Source: Bacteroidales bacterium
GTDB taxonomy: Bacteria > Bacteroidota > Bacteroidia > Bacteroidales > P3
Direction of reading: 5' to 3'
Length of the DNA: 47,730 bases
Assembly: GCA_024400545.1 (NCBI GenBank)
Contig: JAKSMO010000012.1
Location: forward strand, 1-47,730
Positions 1,584-47,730 of this stretch are shown in pieces (within the stretch, counting starts at the first letter, position 1; each line of letters opens with the position of its first letter). The notes beneath the pieces were generated by a model. It saw nothing but the letters and a program-made list of their open reading frames with translations. It searched no databases and was not told where the DNA came from. The translations under genes were made by a program, and so were the position numbers.

Positions 1584-1621
1584 TAAAGAATTAATGGCCA
1601 AATAGAAAATGTAATAAAAGC

Positions 1622-1653: not shown

Positions 1654-1658
1654 ATCTT

Positions 1659-2476: not shown

Positions 2477-2501
2477 GGTTTTGAGTTTTGTAATGATTTT
2501 G

Positions 2502-2532
2502 CAAAATTACGATTATTTTTTGATATATCAAA
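2502..2532 (-). promoter_or_regulatory. Promoter of the 82-aa/UDG-like pair
   Basis: On the minus strand TTTG (2529-2532) and TAATTTTG (2502-2509) are separated by 19 nt, matching the -33 and -7 elements of Bacteroidota. Confidence 0.7.
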
Positions 2533-2600
2533 ATTTGTGAAGAGGCAGTCTATTTTTGCTTTTTGAAAAAGGACTGATACACTAGATGTTGGGTGGTGCA

Positions 2601-4579: not shown

Positions 4580-4585
4580 GATAGA

Positions 4586-5572: not shown

Positions 5573-5574
5573 AA

Positions 5575-6543
5575 TTATTCGTCCCAATAAATGTAGTCAA
5601 ATTCCTTAATAGGTTCGTCGGGCACTTCGCGACGGCTGATGTTGCCTTTGTGGTCAAAATAGACATTGTAGGTGGATTGCACTTCCATCCACTGTTGGGC
5701 AATATCGTCAAATTGAGTAATATGATAGATGGTGGTTCGCCTAACGGGTACGCGTTTGGGGGTGCAACTAAAAATGAAATCCCATGCCTCTTCTTCGTCG
5801 TTACCTTTGCCTGATCCGCCTATCATTTCTGACATGATGTTATACTGGAAGCTAGTTGAGTCGTAATAGGTTCCGGCCAGATGTTTCTTGGCTGAGATAT
5901 GGCCGTTGGCATCGTAGTAGTAATAATTCTGCTCATCGTGAATGCGGTCGGGCCAGGACCCTTCGATGTAGTCTTGTATGAGTCGGCTCTTGGCATCGAA
6001 TACTCGTTCAACGACTAGTGTGTCGTATTCGGTTGGCGGAATGCTGTCGTTATATACTCGGGAGTGCGCGCCACGATATGCGGCTCGGGTGATGCCTATT
6101 TGCGGATGGCGGACGAAATTGATGAGTCGATATGTGTGCACAATTGTGTCGGGGGCTACGCCTGCGTGGAGGAAATTTTGGTTGGAACGATAGTAACGAA
6201 CAACACCTTCGGCATTGTATTCCACGTGCTCTATGGTCTGCATTTCTTCAAATGTCACCTCTCTATCGGTGATGCGCCCTAGGGTATCGAAGGCCACTCG
6301 GATATTGTGCGAAACTTCATATCCGTGATGGCCATAGCGAAGGGTGTCGATGGGGGTGCGTTTTCCCATTATCACGTCGGATAGCTCGTATTGAATGCGA
6401 GCGCGGATATGCGTAGTGTCGCGTTTGGGCATAAAGGGCAGAATGTGGTTTGGCCACACTTGCTGAGCCGTTGCTCCGCTGCTGCAAAATATGAGCATCG
6501 CTATGACTGGTGCGCAGGTGCGTATCGTTTTGAGTAATTGCAT
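5575..6543 (-). CDS. Secreted hypothetical protein with YD-like repeats
   Basis: A protein of about 322 residues. The chosen start MQLLKTIRTC leads into a hydrophobic stretch and a signal-peptidase-like site (SGATA/QQ), so it is exported. A promoter element at 6577-6584 lies downstream of the alternative 6609 start, which excludes that start. The body holds several short beta-rich segments of the form Y-(N/D)-x-x-G-x-(I/V) (EYNAEGVVRYY, YYYDANGHISAKKH, YFDHKGNISRRE), resembling YD/RHS or toxin_15-type repeats found in Bacteroidales surface proteins. No enzymatic motif is evident. It is first in a run with EamA, esterase and MATE genes. Confidence 0.72.
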   Translation of the reverse strand: MQLLKTIRTCAPVIAMLIFCSSGATAQQVWPNHILPFMPKRDTTHIRARIQYELSDVIMGKRTPIDTLRYGHHGYEVSHNIRVAFDTLGRITDREVTFEEMQTIEHVEYNAEGVVRYYRSNQNFLHAGVAPDTIVHTYRLINFVRHPQIGITRAAYRGAHSRVYNDSIPPTEYDTLVVERVFDAKSRLIQDYIEGSWPDRIHDEQNYYYYDANGHISAKKHLAGTYYDSTSFQYNIMSEMIGGSGKGNDEEEAWDFIFSCTPKRVPVRRTTIYHITQFDDIAQQWMEVQSTYNVYFDHKGNISRREVPDEPIKEFDYIYWDE

Positions 6544-6576
6544 TTTGTACGTGAATGCCTTTTCTTGTCGGCATTG

Positions 6577-6584
6577 CAAAAATA
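6577..6584 (-). promoter_or_regulatory. -7 element for the 6543-2601 run
   Basis: The minus strand reads TATTTTTG, matching TAnnTTTG, 34 nt before the chosen ATG. Confidence 0.55.
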
Positions 6585-6636
6585 CGATTAATTTCTCAAT
6601 TGCCCACATTTTTTCTTTTATTACAAAAATAATTCA

Positions 6637-6644
6637 TATCTTTG
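6637..6644 (+). promoter_or_regulatory. -7 element for the 6664-8152 pair
   Basis: TATCTTTG, a perfect TAnnTTTG match, lies 20 nt before the ATG at 6664, so the leader is very short. The two promoters at 6577 and 6637 are divergent. Confidence 0.65.
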
Positions 6645-6663
6645 CATAAAAATAATAGTTGCT

Positions 6664-7200
6664 ATGATCGATCCAAAATTTGAAGATAGAGTTAAAAAAG
6701 ACCTTCACCAATACCTATTGTCGTGCCACGAGATCGACGAACGCCTGCCCGAGGCTTATGACATAGAAGAACTCTGGCCCAAGATTGGCGAATCGTATTT
6801 GGCCGATGGTGTGCGAGAATTCCAAAATTATCCTACCGTAAGTCTGGGTTGGGTGATGTATATTGGCATGGCACTTGCCAAAATGTGGGATGAGGACTGG
6901 CCGACATATTCACAAATCCCCGATTTATATGTGTTTATGCGCGATAAAAGCGGCTACGATCTTTTGGATGAATATATTCGTGGTCCGCTGTTGGGATTAA
7001 TGCAAGAGGATTTTGATAAAACGGAAGAGTTGGTGCAGGAATGTGCCGAGCGTACCTATAGAACGCTGATGCGCGAGAACTTGGAGTATGGCACCGAGGA
7101 TGCCTTCAGAGGCTATGTGGCCTGCATCCATCAGCTGTATCTGATGGGGGCTTATGTGCAACTTCATCGAATGGGTTACCACATGGTAGGATTGAGCTAA
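6664..7200 (+). CDS. Conserved-looking hypothetical protein, 178 aa
   Basis: I do not recognise the family. It is a soluble, mostly helical, acidic protein without a signal peptide. Several aromatic/acidic helices are visible (MIDPKFEDRVKKDLHQYLL near the N-terminus, then WVMYIGMALAKMWDEDW at about 60-80). The start follows a perfect -7 element by 20 nt. The next gene begins 13 nt after its stop, so the two are co-transcribed. Nothing in the sequence gives a function. Confidence 0.72.
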   Translation: MIDPKFEDRVKKDLHQYLLSCHEIDERLPEAYDIEELWPKIGESYLADGVREFQNYPTVSLGWVMYIGMALAKMWDEDWPTYSQIPDLYVFMRDKSGYDLLDEYIRGPLLGLMQEDFDKTEELVQECAERTYRTLMRENLEYGTEDAFRGYVACIHQLYLMGAYVQLHRMGYHMVGLS

Positions 7201-7213
7201 TTAATCAATAGAT

Positions 7214-8152
7214 ATGAAAAAGTTTACACATGCTTATCTGGCTTTTATGGCCATAAAACGACTGCAATACGGTCCTATTCCAGAGGAAAATAAGGCTGAT
7301 GCTAAGGCGTTGGTGAAATGGTTCCATTCCTATCGCGATTTTGTGATAGAGGGGTCGTGGTATCCCGATGAGGTGATAAAGGATATGGCCACAAGCCATG
7401 TGATTAAGTACCGACCCAATGATGACGGAATTCCTCGTGCTTTCAAGAAACTGCCCAAGACAATGCAGTTGCAGATATTGGGTAAGAAGTCGCCACTGTT
7501 TGGAAAGAATTTTGAGATAGTGTCGGGCAATTTGGCCGACCGTTGTGAGTCGATAGCCCATAGCATTGTGGATGACTTTAAGGTGTTGACCGTTGAGGAC
7601 AAGGGGTGCCCCATTGCTCCGACAAATAACCATATCGCATTGCGATTCTTTATGCTAAGCCATTATATTGCCGACTGCCACATGCCATTGCATTGTGACG
7701 ACCGGCCCTTCTCGTCGGGCGAGAATATTCATGGATATTTGGAAACCCAATGGGATAATCAGGTAAAGAAGTCGTATAAGGTGGATACTGCCAACGAACG
7801 TTTCTTTTACGATCCGGATGGCTACCCGATGCCCGATAAGGTAACTGCTCTGATGCAGGCGGTGGAAGATGATGCCATCAATCGTGAGTTTGTGTATGGT
7901 TGGGGAACCGGCAACGGCAATACTTGGGATTACATGAGTGCCATTTCGGAATATTCCTATCTTATGGCGCATGAGTTAATACCAACTCATTACGATCAGA
8001 CTCTGACCAAGGCACAATACAAAGCAACAGAATCGTGGGCAAAGTTTGAGGACTACAGCAAGGTGATACTGTGCGATACGGTGGATTCTATTGCCCGTGT
8101 ATGGCTTCATGTGTGGGCCCGTTATCGCGATTGGGCTGGTAAGAAGAAATAG
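7214..8152 (+). CDS. Zinc-dependent phospholipase C / S1-P1 nuclease-like protein
   Basis: This 312-residue protein contains FMLSHYIADCHMPLHCDD (about 149-166), the HxxxD...H metal-binding pattern of the S1/P1 nuclease and zinc-dependent phospholipase C fold. An early His (FTHAYLAF) and a later His in ENIHGYLETQWD fit the remaining zinc ligands. Relatives cleave phosphodiester bonds in nucleic acids or phospholipids and are normally secreted. Here no signal peptide is visible, so the protein may act in the cytosol. That is unusual and leaves the substrate open. It is co-transcribed with the hypothetical gene upstream. Confidence 0.72.
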   Translation: MKKFTHAYLAFMAIKRLQYGPIPEENKADAKALVKWFHSYRDFVIEGSWYPDEVIKDMATSHVIKYRPNDDGIPRAFKKLPKTMQLQILGKKSPLFGKNFEIVSGNLADRCESIAHSIVDDFKVLTVEDKGCPIAPTNNHIALRFFMLSHYIADCHMPLHCDDRPFSSGENIHGYLETQWDNQVKKSYKVDTANERFFYDPDGYPMPDKVTALMQAVEDDAINREFVYGWGTGNGNTWDYMSAISEYSYLMAHELIPTHYDQTLTKAQYKATESWAKFEDYSKVILCDTVDSIARVWLHVWARYRDWAGKKK

Positions 8153-8178
8153 TTTCCTGTATATCACCAAAGGAATGG

Positions 8179-8219
8179 CAAGGCTAGGGTGAACCCTGAT
8201 GGAGTTCGGTCTAGCCTTG
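8179..8219. terminator. Hairpin between convergent genes
   Basis: A 9-bp stem pairs CAAGGCTAG (8179-8187) with CTAGCCTTG (8211-8219). An inner GAAC/GTTC stem (8191-8194 with 8204-8207) extends it. It includes the stop codon of the S4 gene. No long T-tract follows on either strand, so termination is probable rather than certain. Confidence 0.5.
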
Positions 8220-8432
8220 AATTGTGATGCGGAATTGGTCGAACTCGATCACGTCGCCAGGTACACATTTGGCACGCTTGCGGAGTTCTATTTCGCCATT
8301 GCGTTTCACCAGGCCTTCCACTACCACATCCTGCGCTTCGCCACCTGTCATCACACAGTTGGTAGCTTTGAGCAGTTGGATAAGTTGGATGTATTCATCG
8401 CCGGCGTAAAGTGTAAAATTGATTTCGGTCAT
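8211..8432 (-). CDS. S4-domain RNA-binding protein (YaaA/YbcJ-like)
   Basis: A stand-alone S4 domain of 73 residues. The pattern is the familiar one: YIQLIQLLKATNCVMTGGEA, then VVEGLVKRNGEIELRKRAKC, then a closing PGDVIEF. Proteins of this type bind structured RNA such as rRNA and are linked to ribosome assembly in relatives; the specific target here is unknown. A terminator hairpin (8447-8490) separates it from the AT-hook gene upstream, so it is probably transcribed on its own, but no promoter was recognised. Confidence 0.88.
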   Translation of the reverse strand: MTEINFTLYAGDEYIQLIQLLKATNCVMTGGEAQDVVVEGLVKRNGEIELRKRAKCVPGDVIEFDQFRITIQG

Positions 8433-8446
8433 TGTGAGGGGTGTTT

Positions 8447-8490
8447 TAAAAAGTAAGATTTATGAGTAGGTGTACTCATAAATCTTACAG
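8447..8490 (-). terminator. Intrinsic terminator of the AT-hook gene
   Basis: A perfect 16-bp stem (8453-8468 with 8473-8488) closes on a 4-nt loop, and on the minus strand TTTTTAAAA follows. It lies 25 nt after the stop at 8513. Confidence 0.85.
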
Positions 8491-8512
8491 GTGTATGTTT
8501 TATATAGAAAGA

Positions 8513-9232
8513 TTACTCGATGGGATTTTTGCGAGGACGGCCTTTCTTCTTGGGAGCTGCGGGTTCGGGCGCAGGAGCGTTTTTGCGGGGACGGCCGCGT
8601 TTGGGTTTTTCCGGGGCCTGCATGGCATCCAGTTTGGCCTGCTCTTCAGGGGGAATGGCTGCATTCTTGAGGTAGAACTCACTATCGATGTCCATAAGGT
8701 CGGCATCGGTGGGTTCGTATTCTGCATCGGGGTTTTCGTCATCTTCGATGTCAAGATCGTCGTTGTCTTCGTCGTCTTCATCATCAAAGTCGTCAAAGGC
8801 CTCTTCGAGTTCTTTGCCCAAATCGCCCAAAGCACCATGATTTTTGGAGCGCTTTTTAGGAGCGTCGTCTTCATAGTTGCCATGGCGGATGGTGCCCAAA
8901 GAATGAGAGTCTTCGTTCTCTTCTTTGTCGATGGCTTCCTGTAGGGGAGCGAATTCTTCGTCGGCCTTCTCAACGGCTTCGTCAAAGAAGTCTTTCTCTA
9001 CATCTTCATCGGTAAGCGTGGTATCAATTTTAACGTCGAATTTGACCATATATACGGAGTCTTCGGTTTCCATGGGGACTACAAAAAATGGTTCCCCATT
9101 AGGCTTGTCGAAGCGTTGAAGATAGTCTTTATATCCCTCTGGATACTTTTCTTTGAAGAGTTCTTTCAACTCGTCGGATAGGTTTTTGTAGCTGACTATC
9201 AAGTTCTTTTTATGAGTTCTGCGTGGATTCAT
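8513..9232 (-). CDS. Acidic hypothetical protein with two C-terminal AT-hooks
   Basis: A 239-residue protein with three parts: a basic/mixed N-terminal region (1-60), a long Asp/Glu-rich middle (about 75-200, densest at 143-170), and a Pro/Ala/Lys-rich tail. The tail holds two AT-hook cores, KRGRPRKN (211-218) and KGRPRKN (230-236). AT-hooks bind the minor groove of AT-rich DNA, so a nucleoid-associated or transcription-related role is plausible. The strong charge separation also fits an RNA polymerase- or histone-like accessory factor. I do not recognise a named family. On the minus strand TATACTTG (9251-9258) may be a degenerate -7 element. Confidence 0.75.
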   Translation of the reverse strand: MNPRRTHKKNLIVSYKNLSDELKELFKEKYPEGYKDYLQRFDKPNGEPFFVVPMETEDSVYMVKFDVKIDTTLTDEDVEKDFFDEAVEKADEEFAPLQEAIDKEENEDSHSLGTIRHGNYEDDAPKKRSKNHGALGDLGKELEEAFDDFDDEDDEDNDDLDIEDDENPDAEYEPTDADLMDIDSEFYLKNAAIPPEEQAKLDAMQAPEKPKRGRPRKNAPAPEPAAPKKKGRPRKNPIE

Positions 9233-9345
9233 GGAGTATTAAATTTTGTGCAAGTATAACAACTTTATTTTAAACAATGGCTTTTTGAAGAAAAAAAAGT
9301 TTTCAACATGTGATGATAGCCATTGCTTGGTGTGGCGGAAACTGG

Positions 9346-11994
9346 TTATTCTTGCGAAAAGTTGGATGCTTCCAACCGGCCACTATCGGGATTGAAAGTA
9401 TAGAATGTGAACATGGGCGCAATGGTTCTCAGGAAGGGGGTAGGGCGTGAAGGATAGTTGCGCGAGTTGATGGCTGCATAGGTGATGCACAAATGTTTTT
9501 TGGCTCTAGAAAGGGCCACATAAAAGCGGCGGGCATCCTCGCGTATGCGTTCCTCGTTGTTTTCTTTGATATTGTTGTAAAAAGGATAGCTGCCCTCGGT
9601 GGCGTTGAAGATGACGACGCTTTCAAATTCCAGGCCTTTGGCTTTGTGGGCGGTGGCGATAAAGAATCGTTCGCGTGACATTTGCCGCATACTGCTGCTG
9701 TCGCAAAGGTCAGATTCGCGTAAGGTGTTTATCTCGACTAGATATTTGTCGAGTTGTTCGCGCAATGTGGGTGCGGCAGCGGCATCCACAACATCAATGG
9801 ATAGAAAATCTACAATATGTTTCCATTTCTCCACAGGGGCAACACTTCCTTTGGCCAGGAGTTGTAGATAAATATATTGTATCTCATCCACAATGGCAGG
9901 TCGTTTGTTAGTGCCGTTTGGCAATGCGTAAAGGCGGTTGCTGGTATGGAGGAATATGCTGCGGTAGGCTTCGGAAAATCGCATTACGATGCCTCGCATA
10001 TTGGGCATGGATAGCAATTCCTTTTGTTGGGGTATAAACTGTTCGGCTTTCTGGCGGCAATACGTGAGGAGTGAAAGGGTGGCCATCACATCGTCGATGG
10101 CATTGTGTGAGTTGCACCCTTCCAAGTGCAATGTTTCAAGTAACTTTTCGAGCTTGTAGATGCGTAGTCGGGGTTCAACGAGGCGGCTTAGTTTAAGTGT
10201 GTCGAACCGTTGGCGATGTCCCAATTCAATACCCAGTGTTCGCCGCACGTTGTGGTCCAGAATATTGAAGTCGTATTCCACATTATGACCTACAAGAACA
10301 TGCCCCTGACAGTAGTCGAGGAATTTCTGTAGTCCATCGGTGCGGGAGTATCGTTCAGATTCGAGATAGACGGAAAGCATTGGGTTGTCGTGTCCGCCTA
10401 CGATAGGGGGTATCTCTTTGTTGGTCTCAATAATGATGTTGAATTCCGAACCCTCCACCAATTTGCCATTGCGCACTTTGATGGCAGCTATCTGGATAAT
10501 ATCGTCGTGGAAGATGTCCAGGCCGGTGGTTTCGGTATCGAATAGCACAATTTCCTCGTTGTCGAGCACTTCAACAAATTGTTGCAGATATGTGCTGTTG
10601 TCGTAGATGAGTAGGTCGGTTGGCGTGATGGCCCTGCTGCGGAGTTCGCGCATGAGGTTTCTGGCGGCAGCATATTCGGGCACGATATGTAGGTGGTAGA
10701 ATAGTCGGGCCCAAGCAATAAAGCAGGTCTCGTTGGCAATAATGTTCAGGTGGGAGAACAGCAGTTGCATGGTGGGCGTGGCGAACAAATCGCGGCCCGA
10801 TATTTTGAAATGGGGAATGTCGCCGAACTCTCGACTAATACGGTCGGCTTCGGCATTGGTCGATACGATAATGGCCACACGTCCGTCGGGCTCGATTTCG
10901 GCATATCGTTTGGCCAACGACACCGTGGTGCGATATTCGTTGGCGATGGAGCGCTGGCACAAGGTGCATGCGGCTCCGTCGGCACGACAACGAAGGTTCT
11001 CTTTGTTGTAAATGGCCGATAGGTCTTGAAAGCAGGCGCGAAATACGCAGCAGTCTTGAGGCTGGGCTTGTTGTGTATTGTCGGTTGTGGGCAGTAGTTG
11101 GGGATCGATGCCGAGTTGTTGGGCTGCGTATGTGTTATATACGTCGAGCAAATATTTGGGTGAGCGGTGGTTTTTACCGAGATGATGGATGTTGGGAAAA
11201 CATTTATTTTTCACCTCTTCTAATGCGGCAAGTTTGGCACCGACGAATGAGAAGATGGCTTGCTGCTCGTCGCCTAGGAACACGATGGTGGCATCATCGG
11301 TGGCAAAGAGGTCAATCAGTGCGAATTGTAAGAAGTTCAAATCCTGCACCTCATCCACCTGAATCCATTTGTAGCGCTTCCTATTGGGGTCTGCAATGGC
11401 GTTGAGATATGCTTTCTCGAGCAGGTCTTCGAAATCAAGTAGATTGTCAGTCTCTTTGTATTCGGCATACAATTTGGCCAACTCTCTGCGTCGCTGCATG
11501 GTGGGCAGCTCATATTGGTTGAGTTGGTCGTTGTGGACAATGAGTTGATGGGGCATGCCTGCCTCGTGCTGGGCTATGGCGTGCTGCAGATTTACGATGT
11601 CGGCGGCAAAGCGCGAATGGTCCTCTGTGAGGTCTAATTTGCCCAGATAAGTGATGATGCTTTCGGCATCAAGATCGTCGATAACGGCCGAGTTCTGCGG
11701 TATCTTGTTTTGCTCAAATAGGTAGTTGGAGCAGAACCGATGCACATTGCCAACAAAAAGGTCGGGTGGGACGGGGCTGTTGGTGGCCTGGCTGATGCGG
11801 TCACGCATACCTCTGCTGGCTCGATTGGTAAATGTAAGGCATACCATATCGCTATAATCAACCCCATGGTTGTGGGCTTGAATTACGCGTTCGGCCAAGA
11901 TGAAGGTCTTGCCACAGCCTGGAGGTGCCAACACAAGGTGGCGTCCAGAATTGATATCGATGATTTTTTGTTGGTCGGGATCGGGAGTGGGCAT
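9346..11994 (-). CDS. UvrD/Rep helicase with internal DnaQ-type 3'-5' exonuclease
   Basis: An 882-residue protein with two fused activities. Superfamily 1 helicase motifs are Walker A APPGCGKT (23-30), motif II VDEVQDLN (213-220), motif V region TAHKAKGLEFE (781-791) and motif VI RRFYVALSRAKK (822-833). Between them lies a complete DEDDh exonuclease: FDTETTGLD (485-493, Exo I), GHNVEYDFNIL (569-579, Exo II) and SHNAIDDV (629-636, Exo III with the His). Before the exonuclease, six Cys between 315 and 346 include CRADGAACTLC (336-346) and may bind metal. The likely role is unwinding coupled to 3' end trimming in DNA repair. It lies downstream of glmS, separated from it by an inverted repeat. 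Confidence 0.88.
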   Translation of the reverse strand: MPTPDPDQQKIIDINSGRHLVLAPPGCGKTFILAERVIQAHNHGVDYSDMVCLTFTNRASRGMRDRISQATNSPVPPDLFVGNVHRFCSNYLFEQNKIPQNSAVIDDLDAESIITYLGKLDLTEDHSRFAADIVNLQHAIAQHEAGMPHQLIVHNDQLNQYELPTMQRRRELAKLYAEYKETDNLLDFEDLLEKAYLNAIADPNRKRYKWIQVDEVQDLNFLQFALIDLFATDDATIVFLGDEQQAIFSFVGAKLAALEEVKNKCFPNIHHLGKNHRSPKYLLDVYNTYAAQQLGIDPQLLPTTDNTQQAQPQDCCVFRACFQDLSAIYNKENLRCRADGAACTLCQRSIANEYRTTVSLAKRYAEIEPDGRVAIIVSTNAEADRISREFGDIPHFKISGRDLFATPTMQLLFSHLNIIANETCFIAWARLFYHLHIVPEYAAARNLMRELRSRAITPTDLLIYDNSTYLQQFVEVLDNEEIVLFDTETTGLDIFHDDIIQIAAIKVRNGKLVEGSEFNIIIETNKEIPPIVGGHDNPMLSVYLESERYSRTDGLQKFLDYCQGHVLVGHNVEYDFNILDHNVRRTLGIELGHRQRFDTLKLSRLVEPRLRIYKLEKLLETLHLEGCNSHNAIDDVMATLSLLTYCRQKAEQFIPQQKELLSMPNMRGIVMRFSEAYRSIFLHTSNRLYALPNGTNKRPAIVDEIQYIYLQLLAKGSVAPVEKWKHIVDFLSIDVVDAAAAPTLREQLDKYLVEINTLRESDLCDSSSMRQMSRERFFIATAHKAKGLEFESVVIFNATEGSYPFYNNIKENNEERIREDARRFYVALSRAKKHLCITYAAINSRNYPSRPTPFLRTIAPMFTFYTFNPDSGRLEASNFSQE

Positions 11995-12013
11995 GGGTAA
12001 TTAGATAAAATGT

Positions 12014-12045
12014 GGAAGCTCTAGATGAGAGGATCTAGAGCTTCC
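12014..12045 (-). terminator. Terminator after glmS
   Basis: A perfect 13-bp stem (12014-12026 with 12033-12045) closes on a GAGAGG loop. The minus strand continues ACATTTTATC, a weak T-tract, so some read-through into the helicase gene is possible. Confidence 0.65.
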
Positions 12046-12064
12046 ATAAATATTGTTGGTGTGA

Positions 12065-13924
12065 TTATTCTACGGTGACGCTCTTGGCCAAATTGCGGGG
12101 CTGGTCAACATTGCGACCTTTGGCGGTGGCCACATAGTACGACAGCAGCTGCAATGGGATTACTGCCAGCATAGGCACAAAGCAGTCGCGAGTGTCAGGA
12201 ATAACAAAGCTGTAGTCACTCATCTCCTTAACGATAGTGTCGCCTTCTGTTACAACCGAGATGATCTTACCGTTGCGGGATTTGATCTCCTGTATGTTGC
12301 TCACCACTTTGTCGTACATGCCTTGGCGAGGTGCAATAACAACAACAGGCATCTCTTCGTCAATCAAGGCAATGGGGCCATGCTTCATTTCGGCAGCGGG
12401 ATAACCCTCGGCATGGATGTAGCTGATTTCTTTCAGTTTCAATGCGCCTTCGAGTGCCACGGGGTAGTTGTAACCGCGACCCAGATAGATGAAGTTTTTG
12501 CAGTAGGTGAATTTTTGTGCAAACTCATCAATATTCTTGTTGTTCTCCAAGGTCCACTGCATCTTGTCGGGGATCATAAAGAGCTCGTCAACAAGCATGT
12601 TGTACATGTCGTCGGACAGGGTGTTGCGCACTTTGGCAATGACCAAACCCAGAAGCGACAAGGTGATTACCTGGCCGGTGAAAGCCTTGGTGGAAGCCAC
12701 GCCGATTTCGGCACCCACATGCAGATAGGTGCCGCTGTCGGTGGCGCGGGCAATGGACGAACCAATCACATTGCAGATGCCATAAAGGAATGCGCCTTTG
12801 CTCTTGGCCAACTGAATGGCGGCAAGGGTATCGGCTGTTTCGCCCGACTGTGACACGGCAATTACCACATCGTCTTCGAAAATGACGGGATTGCGGTAAC
12901 GGAATTCCGAAGCATATTCAACCTCTACGGGAATCTGGCAGGCTTCCTCGATGAAGTATTTGCCAATCAAAGCCGAGTGCCAAGAGGTGCCGCAAGCGCA
13001 TATGATGATACGTCGGCAGTTCTTGAATTTCTCTTTATTATCGATAATGCCACTCAAGATGACATCTTTCTGCTCTTTGTTCAGTCGGCCACGAATGCAG
13101 GTGCGCAGGGCGTTGGGCTGTTCCCAGATCTCTTTGAGCATGAAATGGGGGAATCCGCCTTTCTCCAATTGGTCAAGATTCATCTGCAAGGTGTGCAGGT
13201 GAGGAGTCTGTTGCACATTCTGCAAATTTACAATGTCTAAGCGGCCTTTGCGGTCCATGATGGCAATCTCCTCGTCGTTGAGGTAGATAACCTGGTTGGT
13301 GTATTCAACAATAGGAGTGGCATCGGAACCAAGGTAATACTCTGCATTGCCATTCTCGTTTTTGCCAACACCAATAATCAGCGGACTGCCTTTGCGGGCA
13401 CAGATTAGTTGGTCGGGATTGCTTTTCTCTAAGATAGCAATAGCGTATGCACCAACAACGCTCTTCAGTGCAAACTGAACGGCAGTGAAAAGATCGGATT
13501 TGTGGGTGTCCATCATACATTCAACCAACTGAACCAACACCTCGGTGTCGGTCTCGCTGCAGAATGTGTAGCCACGCGATTCCAACTCTGTGCGGAGCGT
13601 TTTGTAGTTCTCGATAATTCCGTTGTGGACCAACGAGAGGTTTTTGGATTGAGAATAATGGGGGTGGGCATTGGTTGCGTTAGGCTCGCCGTGGGTGGCC
13701 CAACGGGTGTGAGCAATACCAATGGTGCCACTGATGTCGTCGTTTTTCACGCTCTCTTCCAGCGCAACCACCTTGCCTTTGGCCTTATATACATTCAGTT
13801 CGCCGCTCTGGCTGATCATCGATACGCCGGCACTATCGTAGCCGCGATATTCCAAACGATGCAGACCTTTGATCAAGATGGGGTAAGCCTGCTGGTCCCC
13901 GAGATATCCTACAATTCCACACAT
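12065..13924 (-). CDS. glmS: Glutamine-fructose-6-phosphate aminotransferase (isomerizing)
   Basis: This 619-residue cytosolic enzyme makes glucosamine-6-phosphate from fructose-6-phosphate and glutamine, the entry to peptidoglycan and LPS amino sugars. The N-terminal glutaminase domain begins MCGIVGYLG, with Cys2 as nucleophile after removal of Met. Two SIS sugar-isomerase domains follow; the first contains CGTSWHSALIGKYF and the second the region around KLKEISYIHAEGYPA. The C-terminus NLAKSVTVE is the conserved GlmS tail, so the gene is full length. A -7 element (TACTTTTG, 13981-13988) lies 57 nt upstream of the start. No glmS ribozyme-like structure was recognised in the leader. Confidence 0.98.
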   Translation of the reverse strand: MCGIVGYLGDQQAYPILIKGLHRLEYRGYDSAGVSMISQSGELNVYKAKGKVVALEESVKNDDISGTIGIAHTRWATHGEPNATNAHPHYSQSKNLSLVHNGIIENYKTLRTELESRGYTFCSETDTEVLVQLVECMMDTHKSDLFTAVQFALKSVVGAYAIAILEKSNPDQLICARKGSPLIIGVGKNENGNAEYYLGSDATPIVEYTNQVIYLNDEEIAIMDRKGRLDIVNLQNVQQTPHLHTLQMNLDQLEKGGFPHFMLKEIWEQPNALRTCIRGRLNKEQKDVILSGIIDNKEKFKNCRRIIICACGTSWHSALIGKYFIEEACQIPVEVEYASEFRYRNPVIFEDDVVIAVSQSGETADTLAAIQLAKSKGAFLYGICNVIGSSIARATDSGTYLHVGAEIGVASTKAFTGQVITLSLLGLVIAKVRNTLSDDMYNMLVDELFMIPDKMQWTLENNKNIDEFAQKFTYCKNFIYLGRGYNYPVALEGALKLKEISYIHAEGYPAAEMKHGPIALIDEEMPVVVIAPRQGMYDKVVSNIQEIKSRNGKIISVVTEGDTIVKEMSDYSFVIPDTRDCFVPMLAVIPLQLLSYYVATAKGRNVDQPRNLAKSVTVE

Positions 13925-39956: not shown

Positions 39957-40037
39957 GGTGAAGGCAATGCTCCAGTGGAGCATTGCCGATAGCGAAGCGG
40001 AGAAGCGCACCCCCGCGGTGCGTATGCCGTAAGGCAT
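39957..40037. repeat. Three-hairpin element, copy 1
   Basis: Hairpin I is GGCAATGCTCC / GGAGCATTGCC (39963-39973 with 39977-39987, 11 bp). Hairpin II is CGCACC / GGTGCG (40006-40011 with 40017-40022). Hairpin III is ATGCC / GGCAT (40024-40028 with 40033-40037). About 254 nt further on a diverged copy keeps all three stems. Confidence 0.75.
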
Positions 40038-40121
40038 TAAGTAAAAGTTCACACTCTTTCCACAGATGTATGAAACGTAGAAACAACTGAGCAAAAATCT
40101 TACTCCCAAACTATTAGCGGA

Positions 40122-40209: not shown

Positions 40210-40210
40210 A

Positions 40211-40290
40211 GGTGAAGGCAAGCCTCCTTGGAAGTTTGCCGCTAGCCTAGCGGAGAAGTGCGCTCCCGCTTTGCACATGCCACAAGGTAT
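40211..40290. repeat. Three-hairpin element, copy 2
   Basis: The opening GGTGAAGGCAA is identical to copy 1. Stem I (40217-40227 with 40230-40240) is kept with one mismatch although several bases differ. Stem II is GTGCG / TGCAC (40258-40262 with 40272-40276). Stem III is ATGCC / GGTAT (40277-40281 with 40286-40290). Several changes are paired or G-T compatible. Confidence 0.75.
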
Positions 40291-40390
40291 TTAGAAATGT
40301 CACAATTTATTCCAACTCACTGTCGTTGATTGTTGGGGCGCACGAAAATTCCAACACAAAGGACGATGATCTTTATGGTTATTAAACAAA

Positions 40391-41827
40391 TCATAAACCT
40401 TTCACTTTGTATTCTGGAATCGGTTTGGAGAATGATGCTTCAGCATCGATATTGCTACATTGCTGGCGCACGATATCACGCCTTTTGACCGCAGGACGCA
40501 AGCAAAGCATATTAAAATCATTTAACTCAACCTGTTCCACACTCGTAATGTGTGGAAAAAGGAGTTTCAAGTATGCAGTGGCAATACGCTTTACAGCCTT
40601 GGTATGACGCATATCCGCACCCTGTGGGACTACAATGAGCTCTTCTACGATGTTAGAATAGACAGATTCAGTTCTCATCTGATGAAGAACTTCAGAAAAA
40701 AACTCTACATTTAGAGTCCAATCTTGAAGAGCCATATCCACATTGACACGAGGAAGCAACCACCCTTCAATCATACCGTGGAATCGGTCTAATAATGCTG
40801 ATTCTTTGAATACCTCAGGAAGAGCATTGAAATACTTGTAGTTTTGAGGTTCATTATTCTCTGATAGCTGGATATTACCCAAAAGCATCAATCCGCACTC
40901 TGACATGAATTCATAGTTATCAATTGTGGCACGACCAAACTCCAAATAATTCTTCAGGAAAGATTGCATTTCAGAGTTATCCGAAAATGTGATTGTCTGA
41001 ATCTCATCAAATGCAACCATATCATAGTAGCGCATGATGCCTGGTGCTTTTGTTGACTTATCATAAACCAACTTCGCACGCGATACCTTGCCGCCACTCA
41101 CTAACCAGACAAACTTTGACAGATTTCCGAAGACATAGCTCTTTCCAGTACCTTTGGGAGCAAGTTCAATGAGGTTCAAACGAGGCTCTATGAAAGGAAG
41201 CAGTCGTGTTAAGAATTCAAGTTTTTGTGTCAAATTCGAGAAAGCTGAAGGTGTGTATTCCATCGCAGAAATAAGCACATCAATCCATTCTTCAAGTGTA
41301 AACTGAGCCCGGCAATTCCGAATATAGTTGATGTCTAGCTTCTGCATTGGTCGGAAAGGTTTGAAATTCACCATTTCCACATGGCCTCGTTCATTATCTA
41401 CAGGAGCTAAATATACAATCTTCATTATTCCCCATTTCTCACCATCAATAAGATCGTCTGGATATTCATCAATCAGGTAGTCAGGTATCAAGGTGTCTGA
41501 AGCTTTGATACCCATATCAGGAATCTGAAAACTTGTCTTATTCTGAGCGAGACTTGTAGTAACTACAAATCGTGTAAGCAGAGTTAGAGTCTCACCACGA
41601 CGCAAACGTGCGAGAATTGCACTATTATCCTTTGGGATATGTGCATCTAGAAACTGCGACAGAGCCTCACGTTTGAATGAACCATCTGCTGCTATATGTG
41701 TTGAAATAAGGTAATCCTTTACGAAGGAGGGCAGGTTTCTACCATTGAACACCTCATAGTTTGCTGGATTTTTGTAAACAGCTGCACTACCAAATACTTG
41801 TTTTATTTTATCGCCTATTGTACTCAT
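40391..41827 (-). CDS. brxL: BREX protein BrxL (short form, AAA+ ATPase)
   Basis: A 478-residue AAA+ protein with Walker A APKGTGKS (223-230), Walker B MVAFDEIQ (270-277), and a sensor/arginine region LLDRFHGMIEGW (346-357). The N-terminal part (SFVKDYLIST, then RGETLTLLTRFVV) matches BrxL-type proteins. Type 1 BrxL proteins have about 680 residues with a C-terminal Lon-like protease domain; here the protein ends after the AAA+ part, so no protease is encoded. This fits the shorter BrxL group. BrxL is needed for phage defence and binds DNA in characterised systems. It starts 6 nt after pglZ and is the last gene of the unit. Confidence 0.85.
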   Translation of the reverse strand: MSTIGDKIKQVFGSAAVYKNPANYEVFNGRNLPSFVKDYLISTHIAADGSFKREALSQFLDAHIPKDNSAILARLRRGETLTLLTRFVVTTSLAQNKTSFQIPDMGIKASDTLIPDYLIDEYPDDLIDGEKWGIMKIVYLAPVDNERGHVEMVNFKPFRPMQKLDINYIRNCRAQFTLEEWIDVLISAMEYTPSAFSNLTQKLEFLTRLLPFIEPRLNLIELAPKGTGKSYVFGNLSKFVWLVSGGKVSRAKLVYDKSTKAPGIMRYYDMVAFDEIQTITFSDNSEMQSFLKNYLEFGRATIDNYEFMSECGLMLLGNIQLSENNEPQNYKYFNALPEVFKESALLDRFHGMIEGWLLPRVNVDMALQDWTLNVEFFSEVLHQMRTESVYSNIVEELIVVPQGADMRHTKAVKRIATAYLKLLFPHITSVEQVELNDFNMLCLRPAVKRRDIVRQQCSNIDAEASFSKPIPEYKVKGL

Positions 41828-41833
41828 GTTAAT

Positions 41834-44284
41834 TTACAAATCGAACATATCATTTATATCTGTATTGGCTCCTACGCCAACAACATTTATTGGTATATTG
41901 GAAATACTATTTGCACCATCAGGTTTCACTTCGACAATATGACAACCTTCCGAAACACCGTCAAGAACAACAGTCCAGGTTGTACCACATCTATTCATTC
42001 TATACGACTTTCCTTCACATAATAAAGTTGCGCCTTTCGGTTCTGGGATAATAGTAAGTGAAACCACAGGATTAGACAGCATTATATCCTCGGATGTTAT
42101 TTTTACCTGATGATTCACAATACTTTTAGTTATATCTTTGTTAGACAGTAAGATAAATGGAACAAGCACCTCTTCTGGAGTACAACCGCCATGCACCTGA
42201 TGCGTAGGAACCTTTGAAAGTGAAGAGTGAGTTAGGGCCACCTTGTACTTCTGACCTTCGGCCTTGTTCTCATGAACCAAATAATCAGGGTCGGTAATAG
42301 CATCATCACTTGTCTTGATGTAACGGCCTTCATGTTCAAACTTACCATCGTATTTCTTGGATGGAGCTTTTCTTGATAAACAACTTAATCCGTGGTCAGA
42401 TACAATGGCAATAGTGCACTTTTGGGTCTTTGAAATAGCAAGAATATCCTTAATGATTTTCTTTATGACTTTCAATTCTTCTATAAGTGTATCAAAATGC
42501 TTATAGCCATGCGAATCATGGCCGAGTTCATCAAGTGCTCCATATTTCTTTACGATGTCACCTTCAAATCGGTTATGATGTGTAGATGATGGCAAATATG
42601 AGCGAGTGATCTGAGAACGGACTACCTTCATTCCGGAGTTCTCCTGCCCTATTAAGAAAAGTATGTAAGAAAGAAACTCAGCACCAAGTCCATCAATCCA
42701 AAATACTCTATCCGGACGATAAAGTACATTAGAGTTTACCTCTGCCAATACCCCACGAGTCTCTTCAAACTCAAAATACCATTTGTAAAAGTTGGCAGCT
42801 GTGTTATTCTTGGTCTTGATAAAATTGGCAATCTCATCCAAATACCTATCTTCCACCTTGGCTCGCTTATATGCCTTGATGTAATCAGTAAACCATTGGT
42901 TTTCAATTTTGAAATGAGAAGGCTTGTTTGTAATGATGTAATTTGCATAATCTGGATAGAACTTTCCGACAGCTTCTGCCAGTTTCTTATGATTAGGATT
43001 GTGTACCGACCAACCAATAAGCAGTTTTTTCTCAAAATCAAATACGCCCGTACACAATTCAATTGCTGAGTTCAAATCACCTCTCCCTTGAAATATCTCC
43101 CTTATCCTTTCATACAACCAATTTTGATCAGCATCAGATAATTGCTCAAAAAGATGGCTATTATCTACAATAATATCACGTCGCTCTGCAGCATACTCGG
43201 AGAACTTATTTGCAGGAATATCGTTGTAAAGTATGCGATTTGCAATCATACTTATTAACTGATTCTCGTCAGATAGAGAAGAGACGGAACCCATACAAGT
43301 ATAAATGTATGGGTATAGGTCTGCAAAGCCAGTGTATATCACATAGTTTCTGAGCAGCCATCGGTCGTAGGACGAAGCTGTTGCATCTGTCCACTCTGCA
43401 ATTACGTCAGCGGCATCAAACTTCACCTTATTAAAAGATGTACGTACAAATGCCTCAAAAGAGAAATTATCAAGCTTTGTCTTGTCTAGGTTCTTTAGCA
43501 ACTGTTCCCAATTTGCCTTGTCATCCTCGTCATATTCGAATGGGAATTGTAGTTCAAGGAATTGTGTCATAAACTCGTATGCATTGGCAATACGAGTAAA
43601 GTTGAAGATATTGTCAGGCTTTGAGTATTTGTATTTAGCCGCAATAGGTGCTGATGTACAAACTATTCGCTCTTGTGGCGCTTGTTTCTTCCAAAACATC
43701 AACCAGTCACGGAGTGAATCAAGTTGACATTGCACGGATTCATTAGGCAGCACAAAATCCTTATACTTTGCGAAGAACACTTCTACCGATTGAGCCTCCG
43801 CATCATAACGCCAGATAGGAGCACTCTCCTGAATACGGGCAAAATGATTGAGGAAGTCGGTAAAACGATTCTGCAAACCTATTAGAGGAATATAGATGCG
43901 CTTGTTTGGGTTGTGAATATCCTCCAAAAGCATAATCTCGTTGAAGAAGCCTCTGAAGTCATCATCGTTATAGAAGCGTGCAACCTCAGAGAACGGAGTT
44001 ACAAAGGTAGACTTCTTACATGCTTTGATAGCATCTTTCAGCATATCTTTTGTGATCCATGTATCATCTTCGCCGGCATCGATAAGCGTTTCAAGGTCAA
44101 GTGTGTCCACACCTATATTGGTCATAAACTTGGCCAGTTCCTTGAATTCATTGAAATTATTGAGCATGATAAAACGGACAGCATAGCGTTGTGCCAGCAT
44201 ATCACGAGTATCTTTGTCTCGAACAATTTCCTTATTCAGTTCATCAAATGAACTGAATATCTTTACTTTTTCTGACGTATCCAT
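41834..44284 (-). CDS. pglZ: BREX phosphatase-like protein PglZ
   Basis: An 816-residue protein with a C-terminal PglZ (alkaline-phosphatase superfamily) domain. Likely metal ligands are Asp531 in VFWIDGLGAEF, Ser567-Thr568 in SSTHHN, Asp630-His631 in VSDHG, and His695/His698 in PTHQVHGGCTPEE. The length and layout match the PglZ type A proteins of BREX. A small beta-rich C-terminal domain (about 720-816) follows. PglZ is essential in all known BREX systems, where it pairs with the BrxC/PglY ATPase; its enzyme activity is still unclear. It starts 18 nt after brxC and ends 6 nt before brxL, in an AT-rich region. Confidence 0.93.
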   Translation of the reverse strand: MDTSEKVKIFSSFDELNKEIVRDKDTRDMLAQRYAVRFIMLNNFNEFKELAKFMTNIGVDTLDLETLIDAGEDDTWITKDMLKDAIKACKKSTFVTPFSEVARFYNDDDFRGFFNEIMLLEDIHNPNKRIYIPLIGLQNRFTDFLNHFARIQESAPIWRYDAEAQSVEVFFAKYKDFVLPNESVQCQLDSLRDWLMFWKKQAPQERIVCTSAPIAAKYKYSKPDNIFNFTRIANAYEFMTQFLELQFPFEYDEDDKANWEQLLKNLDKTKLDNFSFEAFVRTSFNKVKFDAADVIAEWTDATASSYDRWLLRNYVIYTGFADLYPYIYTCMGSVSSLSDENQLISMIANRILYNDIPANKFSEYAAERRDIIVDNSHLFEQLSDADQNWLYERIREIFQGRGDLNSAIELCTGVFDFEKKLLIGWSVHNPNHKKLAEAVGKFYPDYANYIITNKPSHFKIENQWFTDYIKAYKRAKVEDRYLDEIANFIKTKNNTAANFYKWYFEFEETRGVLAEVNSNVLYRPDRVFWIDGLGAEFLSYILFLIGQENSGMKVVRSQITRSYLPSSTHHNRFEGDIVKKYGALDELGHDSHGYKHFDTLIEELKVIKKIIKDILAISKTQKCTIAIVSDHGLSCLSRKAPSKKYDGKFEHEGRYIKTSDDAITDPDYLVHENKAEGQKYKVALTHSSLSKVPTHQVHGGCTPEEVLVPFILLSNKDITKSIVNHQVKITSEDIMLSNPVVSLTIIPEPKGATLLCEGKSYRMNRCGTTWTVVLDGVSEGCHIVEVKPDGANSISNIPINVVGVGANTDINDMFDL

Positions 44285-44302
44285 AATTAATTGGGGACAT
44301 AA

Positions 44303-47300
44303 TTAGCTACCAAGATAACCTGATATGAAACTTGAAATCTCTGGGTGCTCTTCTAATATCTCAAGTACAAACATCTTCCACATTGAGGTTGGCATATTAG
44401 ATTCTTTGACAAGATTCTTGGCCTCTCTTATGGCATCTGAAGTCGGTGGAGTATGCGGAACAGGTTCGCTAACTATTGATGGCTTATCAGGATCTTTTAG
44501 CTCATTTGTAGTAGATGTCGGCTTCTTAATCTTATTGATATAGAATGACATCACGCAAGACTTAACATCTTCCTCTCTGCGGAAAGCAATCTCTGACTGC
44601 AAATGCGAAAGTTCCTCTTCAAGTTCATCCCACCATTCTGGTTGAAGTTCAACTTCTTCGATAGCATTGATGAAATTTTCGAAACCCTCTCGATAGTTAT
44701 CAGCTTTTGCAAGGAGTTTGTACAGGTCTATCTGATCATTCTTAATCTCGTGGAGTAATTCTTTAATCTTTGGCAATTGATAACTATCTTGGTTAAAAAG
44801 TGTGATGAGATCGACAATTGCCTTCTTGCAATTGGGTTTTGATTTAATTGCTTTACAATAGATAAGAGACCACAATGGATACTTGGCTATCTGCTTACAG
44901 AACTCCGTAATACACCATTTGGCGTATGTAAGACTTTTTAAGTCTGATATGTTTACGCCCTTAACATGACTTAGATTAAATACTTCTCCAAGGATGTTGG
45001 TAAGGTTGCGCTCTTCAACCGAACCAAAACGAAGCAATAGTTTATTGCTTGTTTCGCTTATACCATTATCCCACATCTTAAGAAGAATCTCAATCATATC
45101 GTTGAGCTTCTCGTCTCCAACTGGCTGAGAGGTACTTGGATTGAAGAGGTCATCCTTATGCTTGCGGAGTGCATAACCAAGGATGGCATAGTTTGCAGGG
45201 TTAGCAAACATACCGTATGGTGGTCGCAAAAGAGGCGCAAGGATGTCACTTAATGAGAAACGATCAGTATATTTTTTTCGTGCTGCCTCAACAAGTAAAT
45301 CAACTTCTTTGCAGATGGTGTTGATCCATGAGTTCCCGTTTGATGCAGCTTCAGTCAACTCACATGTATCGTTAATCAGATTGTTTTCGCCCTCCATAAA
45401 GATAAACCTGGTTGGACGCACCGAACCGCCAAAACTAAGAAGTTCATCGCGATTGCGTTTCTGCAACATCTGCAATGATAGTGCCTTGTAATTCTTGTTG
45501 TGGAAATAGGTCATAGCTTCATTCTGGAGTGCCTTGACACTCTCCATACCAGCAGGAAATATCTGTGCGCTGAACTTCTTATTGATTACATTATAGATAT
45601 TGCTGAAGATTCCATCGCTGGAACGTTTGCCATTAAAGTACATAGCGTATGTTCCACCATTCATGCGGTTCTTCCACTTTACGACATACTCTTTGGCTGC
45701 ATTCTCAAACTGACTTGCATCGTCTGTATTAAAGTGTGATCGGCTTACGTTCGCCTGAGCCACAGCATCAATAAATTGATTCTGAGATGTTAGAGTGAAT
45801 ACCTCATTAGGTATGATGAACATAGTATTTTCAAACTCTTCAGAGAATCCCTTGACGCGATTTTCCATCATATCACGTGCTTCGTCTGTAATAGAAAAGA
45901 ACAAGGCAACATGTAGGAAATTTGGCTTTTCACGCGTATATTTGTTCAGTTTGCTACGGAGTCTTGCTTCATCATCTTCACAAGCATAAAATTGTGGCTC
46001 ACATTTACGCATTAGTCGCTCGCCTACAAGAAAGATTCTCTCAATATCCTGCTTACTCTTTTCGCTATATTTTAAATATTCGATGGCGGTTGGGAACTGT
46101 CTGCGAACATCATTCTTCTCCTTTGTAATCTCAGCAGGATTGTATGATGACACTGATATCTTGAACTCACCAAAGATGTCTCGAGCAATAATCGTGCTCT
46201 CATCAAGCCAGGTCAAAATCTTATCCATTTTGTCAGAACAACGGTCTCCCGAGAAAATATATTTCAAGTTTTTGTCGTTTGGAGCATACTTCTCAGGAGA
46301 GCTCTTAAACTTAACACTAAGAGCATTGAGCAGTAGAATGACTTTAAACACTCGTAAGAAATCGTCACCCATCTTCTCAACTTTACTTATGTGAGTTGAA
46401 TAAACATTTGTAAAAGCTGCACACAAGGGTTCGTTAATAAACTCAGAATAAAAGAAATCCCAAAGCCAATCAGCTGTGAGCATCATCTTGTGGTCAAAGT
46501 TTGTGGGGCTTTTGATAAACTGCTTAAAACCGAATTTCTCATCGTTCATAAACTTCAGAACGCTTCGGTTAGCTGAACCCATGATGTTGGCCATTTTCGA
46601 ACAGAGGAATGCTGTATATGGATGGAGAGGAAAAAGGTTCTGAATGTGGTCTTTTTCCTCCATATTATTGCTTTCGCATAGGTAGTCGTAAAGATTCCGA
46701 TCAATATTTTCTTTCGCTAAATGTGAAGCAAATGCAAAATCTCTTTCCTTTTTCACACTAAATGTATGACGCAGAATAAGGTAAGTCGAGATTTCGTCCA
46801 TTTGATAATCAACGCTATCGTAGCGGTCGCTCATCTTGGTGATGTCCTTGCCTTTTGCGTCAAGGCTTGAACTCTCAGTCCTGTGAGAGATAAGGTAAAG
46901 GAAGACGTTGTTGTTCTGTGATTTCTCTGCAATATTCTGAAGCACGTTGATTCGGTCGCTCTTCAAGGTATCCATAACACTGGTGAACTCATCCCAGAAG
47001 ATGATCAGTCCATTAGCGATTCCTGCTTCTTCGATTGCCTTTTCTACTTCTACAAGCCAATTGCTAATACTATCGCTTGTCAGATAGGTTTTGTCTGCTG
47101 CTAACGCCTCTTCCAAATGGGTAAATACATCAATATCATTGACCTTCAGTTTTGCAATCAACTTATCATAGTTTGGAGCTTCAGAGGCCAATTCGTCGTT
47201 GTTCTCAAGAAGTTCTGGAATACGAGACTGATGGCTTTCAACCCACTTGATAGCCTCGTCAAAGTCAGAACGGACCACTAGGTCAGGATAACCTGCTGCC

Positions 47301-47725
47301 ACCAATGCCTTCTTTGTCTCGCGCTGAATAGAAAGTGAAAAACGCGGAATATTGTATGCGCCCTCAACACCCTTCAATACAACAGGAAAGTAACGTTTTT
47401 GTTTTCTTATAGCAGATAATTGAGCTTTGATTGCATCATTTGGTATATTCTGAATATAAGAGTCAATCTTTTTTGCATCATCACAAAGAAGGTGACGAAC
47501 CACACTACTTGCATGACTCTTTCCTGTACCGAAAGTTCCACGAACCCACATAGAGCGACGTTTGCTGATTTCGGTAGATGTGATGGCCGTGATACTGCGT
47601 TGCAACAGGTCACAGAATTGTTTTGTTGGAATGAAGGTGCGCCACATATCGGGCGTCTCATCCGTCATATCATATACTGGCAGGAAATCCTGCATTTTGA
47701 TATAGTCAGAATACTTTGTTGCCAT
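44303..47725 (-). CDS. brxC: BREX P-loop ATPase BrxC/PglY
   Basis: A 1140-residue protein, complete at the right edge of the window (start ATG at 47725, MATKYSDYIK). Walker A is GTFGTGKSH (63-71) and Walker B is IIFWDEF (241-247). The N-terminal opening, FLPVYDMTDETPDMWRTFIPTKQF, and the stretch HPYTAFLCSKMANIMGSANRS are characteristic of BrxC/PglY. It is the large ATPase of BREX, thought to organise the complex. It is the first gene seen in the unit; the gene upstream, which in type 4 BREX would be brxP, is outside the window. The C-terminal 50 residues include a Pro/Ser/Thr-rich linker. Confidence 0.92.
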   Translation of the reverse strand: MATKYSDYIKMQDFLPVYDMTDETPDMWRTFIPTKQFCDLLQRSITAITSTEISKRRSMWVRGTFGTGKSHASSVVRHLLCDDAKKIDSYIQNIPNDAIKAQLSAIRKQKRYFPVVLKGVEGAYNIPRFSLSIQRETKKALVAAGYPDLVVRSDFDEAIKWVESHQSRIPELLENNDELASEAPNYDKLIAKLKVNDIDVFTHLEEALAADKTYLTSDSISNWLVEVEKAIEEAGIANGLIIFWDEFTSVMDTLKSDRINVLQNIAEKSQNNNVFLYLISHRTESSSLDAKGKDITKMSDRYDSVDYQMDEISTYLILRHTFSVKKERDFAFASHLAKENIDRNLYDYLCESNNMEEKDHIQNLFPLHPYTAFLCSKMANIMGSANRSVLKFMNDEKFGFKQFIKSPTNFDHKMMLTADWLWDFFYSEFINEPLCAAFTNVYSTHISKVEKMGDDFLRVFKVILLLNALSVKFKSSPEKYAPNDKNLKYIFSGDRCSDKMDKILTWLDESTIIARDIFGEFKISVSSYNPAEITKEKNDVRRQFPTAIEYLKYSEKSKQDIERIFLVGERLMRKCEPQFYACEDDEARLRSKLNKYTREKPNFLHVALFFSITDEARDMMENRVKGFSEEFENTMFIIPNEVFTLTSQNQFIDAVAQANVSRSHFNTDDASQFENAAKEYVVKWKNRMNGGTYAMYFNGKRSSDGIFSNIYNVINKKFSAQIFPAGMESVKALQNEAMTYFHNKNYKALSLQMLQKRNRDELLSFGGSVRPTRFIFMEGENNLINDTCELTEAASNGNSWINTICKEVDLLVEAARKKYTDRFSLSDILAPLLRPPYGMFANPANYAILGYALRKHKDDLFNPSTSQPVGDEKLNDMIEILLKMWDNGISETSNKLLLRFGSVEERNLTNILGEVFNLSHVKGVNISDLKSLTYAKWCITEFCKQIAKYPLWSLIYCKAIKSKPNCKKAIVDLITLFNQDSYQLPKIKELLHEIKNDQIDLYKLLAKADNYREGFENFINAIEEVELQPEWWDELEEELSHLQSEIAFRREEDVKSCVMSFYINKIKKPTSTTNELKDPDKPSIVSEPVPHTPPTSDAIREAKNLVKESNMPTSMWKMFVLEILEEHPEISSFISGYLGS

Positions 47726-47730
47726 AGTCG

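Follow-up and report, generated by a model that had tools for sequence, protein, structure and literature searches.

The window analysed here is contig C10 (JAKSMO010000012.1, taken over its entire length of 47,730 bases) of the Bacteroidales assembly G000 (105 contigs, 2.64 Mb, 96.3% complete, 8.27% contamination). Its right-hand end carries brxC, pglZ and brxL, three genes of a bacteriophage exclusion (BREX) system. Their open reading frames (ORFs) are all full-length and lie head to tail on the minus strand, with gaps of 18 and 6 nt. A brxP gene is present on another contig of the same assembly, C26. The features are as follows:

40391..41827, minus strand: brxL, 478 aa, short form consisting of BrxL_N and BrxL_ATPase, with GTGKS at residue 226
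41834..44284, minus strand: pglZ, 816 aa, type 4 form
44303..47725, minus strand: brxC, 1140 aa, BrxC/PglY-type ATPase with the P-loop GTFGTGKS at residue 63
47726..47730, no strand: end of the contig, 5 nt before brxC begins; the last part of brxP and its junction to brxC are unassembled
G000:C26:2-2020 (locus L037), minus strand, outside the window: brxP, 673 aa, its frame running off the left end of the contig

Assignment of the operon and location of brxP

BrxC matched the PADLOC model PDLC02472 with 458.3 bits over residues 4-1138, as compared to only 17-79 bits for SspC models. No Pfam or NCBIfam match was obtained for BrxC at E 0.01, and among the three window proteins BrxL alone matched Pfam at this cut-off. 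BrxL scored 647.6 bits against PDLC02505 and 437.9 bits against TIGR02688 (cut-off 329.3). For PglZ, 559.1 bits were obtained with NF033445 (BREX_PglZ_4; cut-off 140) and 14-15 bits with the type 1 and type 2 PglZ models; the protein contains the stretches WIDGLG, SDHG and HQVHGGCTPEE, which we take to be active-site motifs. Neither a methyltransferase nor brxA or brxB is present among the three window genes; PglX was not searched for genome-wide. A BREX type bearing a methylase is ruled out by the PglZ model scores, and type 1 in particular was rejected because of these scores and the lack of PglX, brxA and brxB among the genes read. An Ssp system was rejected as well, since BrxC models outscore those of SspC (458 versus 79 bits) and BrxP combines SspB-like and SspD-like parts in one protein. 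A preliminary description of the window had proposed one tight unit of the three genes, free of a methyltransferase, brxA and brxB and fitting type 4 BREX. ORF coordinates, model scores and the presence of BrxP in the assembly agree with it in all these points.

The same description had placed brxP just to the right of the window. As the window is a whole contig ending 5 nt before brxC, the sequence beyond position 47730 is unreadable. A search of G000 for 3'-phosphoadenosine 5'-phosphosulfate (PAPS) reductases yielded four places, the best of them on C26 (115.6 bits), followed by a DndC-like one on contig C95 (39.6 bits) and two more at 22 and 20.6 bits. The C26 protein matches PDLC02510 with 674 bits over model positions 1-597 of 779. 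It contains a PAPS_reduct domain (115 bits), two ferredoxin-like cysteine clusters and the start of an SspB-like (DUF4007) tail, which is usual for BrxP and is cut here by the contig end. The congener genome G006 possesses an intact brxP-brxC-pglZ-brxL operon with gaps of 12, 12 and 6 nt. Residues 1-185 of the C26 protein are 95% identical to BrxP of G006, the DNA upstream of the gene shows 82% identity in a match of 395 nt, and both genomes have the same ten bases around the brxC start. Because the brxP-brxC junction (about 180 codons and a short gap) is missing from the G000 assembly, we infer the adjacency of brxP and brxC in this genome, which is very likely. When the tail of a homologue with the same cassette (see below) was searched for in G000, it matched C26 alone, with residues 1-90 of 268. 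With the Pfam DUF4007 model no match was obtained in G000, nor in the 14 control genomes, so that this search is uninformative.

Two other explanations of the divided operon have to be considered. The C26 BrxP might stem from another strain or organism in the assembly, the window brxC having a different partner. The contamination value and the fact that C26 and C10 do not meet speak for this. Among the four PAPS-reductase places, however, only C26 scores high, the BrxP N-terminus and its upstream DNA (possibly a dispersed repeat) match the same congener as brxC does, and the wider mosaic result described below is independent of G000, so that we regard a foreign origin as very improbable. A decayed remnant, which the incomplete brxP of the assembly might suggest, is barely credible: the brxP frame is open at the contig edge and 86% identical to a complete homologue up to this edge, and the other three genes are full-length. 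According to the preliminary description, a pglX directly upstream would make the operon another type, and a truncated or unrelated gene there would make it a remnant; as far as the assembly is visible neither applies, and the probable upstream gene encodes BrxP. Thus, the fit of PglZ to the BREX-4 model, the predicted brxP on C26 and the intact congener operon together support the assignment of the window locus to type 4 BREX, as the part of a brxP-brxC-pglZ-brxL operon that follows brxP.

Type 4 BREX is less studied than type 1, as had been remarked, but it has already been described; its primary paper is reportedly that of Yuan et al. 2024. In the accessible parts of PMC12839542, PMC11931770 and PMC12707154 it appears as a phosphorothioate system, and the G000 operon is a further example of it. 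The earlier suggestion that marking would not use adenine methylation agrees with the sulphur-based modification in the first two of these sources. A cysteine desulfurase is not among the four operon genes. G000 holds seven aminotransferase class V matches (best 497 bits), one of which might serve in this role, and the part of PMC12839542 at hand states that housekeeping enzymes probably stand in for the desulfurase in type 4 BREX.

Divergence along BrxP

For the comparison of BrxP proteins, the best 80 of 149 relatives were kept as loci (L-numbers); a family search of 190 genomes gave nine above the cut-off, G000 included. The duplicates L064, L071, L073 and L089 (equal to L044, L042, L038 and L041, respectively) were removed, as were the near-identical L086, L126 and L115 from the divergence analyses onward. 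BrxP pieces below 600 aa and BrxC pieces below 900 aa were left out of the pairwise table.

Between G000 and G006, overall identity amounts to 89% for BrxC, 82% for PglZ and 92% for BrxL. Their BrxP proteins are 92-96% identical over residues 1-150 and 84% over residues 151-200, beyond which 50-residue stretches show 26-70%. At the DNA level a sharp fall from about 90% to mostly 40-80% occurs near nucleotide 540 of brxP. The same type of divergence was seen in the wider set. For 55 pairs with at least 80% BrxC identity, BrxP residues 401-520 were below 50% identical in 33, at 50-59% in two and at 70% or more in 20; among the 28 pairs with BrxC at 85% or above, 11 were below 50%, 17 at 70% or more and none in between. 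The DUF4007 part drops in the same pairs (r 0.96 in 124 pairs with at least 70% BrxC identity), none being uncoupled at the limits set.

In 20-residue stretches, 21 discordant pairs showed identities of 73-93% (residues 1-280), 58-73% (281-380), 22-42% (401-520), 54-66% (521-580), 12-53% (581-820) and 89% (821-840), as compared to 77-98% all along BrxP in 25 concordant pairs. Furthermore, 33 discordant and 26 concordant pairs of similar BrxC identity (means 84 and 86%) were compared. No 40-residue stretch of BrxC, PglZ or BrxL differed between the two groups by more than about 7 points, as opposed to 23-56 points for BrxP residues 281-800. Two parts can be told apart in BrxP, an N-terminal one that is conserved and holds the PP-loop, and a cassette of approximately residues 290-820 that is exchangeable. 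Within the cassette lie the last part of the PAPS-reductase domain, a hypervariable region, a ferredoxin-like stretch and the SspB-like DUF4007 domain. The same kind of difference was observed between L079 (Bacteroides heparinolyticus) and L106 (Prevotella vespertina) and between L104 (Prevotella sp. P5-50) and L125 (P. pectinovora), whose records are not titled as metagenome-assembled genomes (MAGs). The first of these pairs shows 89% identity in BrxC and 38% in BrxP residues 401-520, and the second 86 and 27%, respectively.

Seventy-two loci, L100 being left out, fell into 41 cassette classes when residues 400-820 were clustered by single linkage at 60% identity. Mapped on the BrxC tree, the cassettes changed 44 times for 41 classes, a count that is uninformative as most classes are single. 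For region 400-521, no PDB sequence match was found at E<=1 and no Pfam family in more than two of 60 members. Its presumed fold is that of a whole-chain model and of the comparison in PMC12839542, in the accessible part of which the extra domain of BrxP is likened to a Mog1p/PsbP-like fold. That the pdb_via list gave no entry for this region does not speak for a new fold. In the SspB-like domain, position 788 is acidic in every row with a letter there, an observation of conservation only.

Replacement of the BrxP cassette as a block

Quick trees and approximately unbiased (AU) tests were calculated for 20 loci. In the BrxC, PglZ and BrxL trees G000 groups with G006 (support 100, 97 and 96, respectively), and a grouping of G000 with L055-L058 is rejected. 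The tree of the BrxP N-terminus joins G000 and G006 weakly (support 63, rival p 0.02). The tree of residues 290-820, in which the G000 cassette reaches only to about residue 664, places G000 with L055-L058 (support 100) and rejects G000 plus G006 (AU p 1.4e-6). Cassette identity of G000 is 86% with L055 and 46% with G006. In the case of L072 and L081, the pair is rejected by the cassette (p 8e-66), where L081 joins L066, and the PglZ tree rejects L081 plus L066 (p 0.006); BrxL gives no test here, since both rows are identical.

Conflicts between cassette and operon were counted in 65 loci with four usable genes, L042 and loci without PglZ or BrxL having been removed from the 72. A strict conflict was scored when the cassette was nearer, by more than 15 points, to a more distant operon, provided that the locus had a BrxC relative of at least 70% identity. 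Strict conflicts were found for the cassette in 11 of 47 loci and for PglZ, BrxL and the BrxP N-terminus in none of the 47 each. At a looser setting of 8 points the cassette gave 18, and PglZ, BrxL and the N-terminus 0, 1 and 0, respectively. With BrxL or PglZ instead of BrxC as the yardstick, 13 of 64 and 11 of 39 loci were in strict conflict, and the controls remained at 0.

A natural replacement is seen in L081 and L072, which are collinear over 17.4 kb. Fifty-nine windows of 250 nt outside the variable part of brxP average 96.4% identity (lowest 83%) and the eight windows inside it 57.6%; two edge windows (71 and 88%) enter neither mean. The replaced segment of about 2.3 kb begins at approximately nucleotide 250 of brxP and stops close to the end of the gene. 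According to the record titles, the two loci come from a rumen-collection (RUG) Bacteroidia MAG and an Oscillospiraceae MAG named Lapin; the latter label may be a binning error. Overall, these data show block exchange of the cassette and not fast drift. Cassette exchange in BrxP is unmentioned in the accessible parts of PMC12839542, PMC10853773, PMC11931770, PMC12707154, PMC8092258 and PMC11842806, a set that does not cover Yuan et al. 2024. It appears to be new, and we make no claim that it is unpublished.

The mosaic structure of BrxP in a canonical type 4 BREX system could also reflect general recombination without any functional meaning. Gut Bacteroidales commonly recombine, and the breakpoints are not fixed. 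The distribution of the conflicts, with 11 of 47 for the cassette versus 0 of 47 for PglZ, BrxL and the BrxP N-terminus, argues against this, as does the absence of any cassette-like behaviour along BrxC, PglZ and BrxL. We therefore consider functionally meaningless recombination improbable.

Several observations concern the surroundings of the cassette. In 32 of 77 same-strand type 4 loci a gap of 300-520 nt separates brxP and brxC. All 32 gaps hold an ORF of at least 80 aa, of 139-150 aa in the 12 listed (e.g. L040:4807-5244 and L039:14793-15272), and two tested ORFs had no Pfam or PADLOC match; this ORF may be an additional component in one branch of type 4. The divergence extends past the brxP stop into this gap in two pairs. 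L039, from a congener, additionally has an AAA_14/DUF4143 ATPase between brxP and brxC (L039:13489-14715; PADLOC candidate PDC-S01, 501 bits), which is absent from its near relative L040. Two whole-genome shotgun projects each contain two BrxP loci (L056 and L127; L077 and L100). The BrxPs of L056 and L127 differ, being about 90 and 41% identical to that of L058, and a resident second copy could act as cassette donor. Switching by inversion of silent brxP pieces was rejected, as a search at E 1e-10 with at most about 10 kb of flank found a two-piece BrxP only in L042 (and its duplicate L071) and L068, which look broken. Of 72,556 plasmid records, two contained BrxP at E 1e-30, both versions of one Methanosphaera record with 34.9% identity.

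Proposed target choice by the cassette and relation to known systems

We propose that BrxP and BrxC would place phosphorothioate in the host DNA at a short motif, and that BrxC, PglZ and BrxL would form a general machine acting against DNA without the host marks. Recombination within or beside brxP replaces the cassette as a block and leaves the other three genes unchanged. If the cassette reads the target site, a single swap would re-target both marking and self-recognition, resembling the exchange of target-recognition domains in restriction-modification systems. Block exchange was seen in a single part of the modification subunit only, as such a way of working calls for. A type 4 BREX system with an exchangeable BrxP cassette as its target reader is, as a whole, the explanation that we consider likely. 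It is also reasonably likely that the entire choice of target resides in this one cassette, i.e. the hypervariable region plus the SspB-like domain, and that gut bacteria trade it, so that phosphorothioate epigenome and self-recognition would switch together with BrxC, PglZ and BrxL untouched.

A number of points weigh against this proposal. We know of no phosphorothioate motif for any cassette, so that the link from cassette to target is putative. The cassette comprises more than a recognition domain needs, since the catalytic PAPS domain ends within it and it includes the ferredoxin-like stretch as well. Left breakpoints vary between pairs (codon ~70-85, 185 or 285-315), and right breakpoints lie in the last 50 codons of brxP or beyond its end. 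Two pairs with at least 80% BrxC identity have an N-terminal BrxP part of only 63%, and 36 of the 47 loci are free of conflict at the strict setting. The BrxC tree fails to reject L081 plus L066 (p 0.14), the N-terminal tree is undecided for L072 and L081, and the groups compared in the AU tests had been chosen with identity tables of these sequences already in view. Most loci are MAGs, BrxP of G000 lies on another contig, the assembly has 8.27% contamination, and the DNA following brxL in G000 is unlike its counterpart in G006.

Alternatively, the cassette might vary in order to evade phage inhibitors or other partners binding BrxP, with the motif unchanged. In favour of this are the large size of the variable part and its location away from the PP-loop motif (residue 198); also, in the accessible part of PMC11842806 the phage protein Ocr binds the type 1 protein BrxX at its target-recognition domain. 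This binding is, however, independent of the variable recognition site according to the same source. The variable block moreover includes the SspB-like domain, and change as one unit with a two-peaked divergence is the pattern expected of alternative specificities. Evasion is thus unlikely, though a shade less so than meaningless recombination, and target reading by the cassette is preferred.

In the part of PMC12839542 at hand, the roles of the extra domain and the cysteine-rich region of BrxP are called unclear, and no account of site choice in type 4 BREX was found there. This question can be tested with the cassette boundaries and with natural pairs whose main difference is the cassette. 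If target reading by the cassette is true, the 41 classes in 72 loci would mean many type 4 specificities, and it would be explained how the rest of the operon stays nearly constant while specificity turns over. The cassette sequence would then also allow strains with a common sulphur-based barrier to DNA exchange to be predicted.

At the left side of the window operon, the G+C content changes from 50-58% across 8 kb to about 40% within the operon, which suits acquired DNA. Between icd and brxL, two similar short stretches (39957-40050 and 40210-40300) appear palindromic by eye, and the sequence of the former recurs in many of 119 genus genomes searched. No tRNA or Rfam family was found at the left edge of the operon. 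A shared insertion site was rejected, as the 891 nt left of brxL match nothing downstream of brxL in G006.

Two further loci were encountered. L047 (G000:C95:1-14000; 1612-7730, minus strand, and 9936-12292) carries a second phosphorothioate-type operon with DndC, a PbeC/DndD-like protein, a protein with PD-Lambda-5_A matches and a 542-aa protein with a weakly DndE-like start and a DndH/HerA-like remainder. A type II methyltransferase/restriction enzyme pair lies beside it. Unless this is contamination, the genome has two phosphorothioate systems. In L046 of a congener (G028:C35:22000-33163; 5547-10831), a 247-aa ORF matching the C-terminal part of PglX, and a type IIG enzyme equally, is followed by PglZ-like and BrxL-like genes; this is perhaps another BREX type with a split methyltransferase.

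The locus corresponds to type 4 BREX (brxPCZL) in its four core proteins, the PAPS-reductase/ferredoxin/DUF4007 fusion and the BREX-4 PglZ; the gene order is the same in relatives, and the operon is likewise free of a methyltransferase. In SspBCD, by contrast, SspB and SspD are separate proteins according to the accessible part of PMC8092258, unlike in the fused BrxP. The Dnd system (DndCDE) shares the PAPS-reductase-type sulphur enzyme, and in the part of PMC10853773 at hand a variable DNA-binding face of DndE is proposed to set target specificity. However, DndD and DndE are not among the four genes here, and the variable part sits inside BrxP. Type 1 BREX differs by methylation instead of sulphur modification, and the PglX model is absent from the PADLOC matches of BrxP. 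Nevertheless, in PglX/BrxX of this type, as described in the accessible part of PMC11842806, one subunit both modifies and picks the target and the rest is general, which is the likeness that we propose for BrxP.
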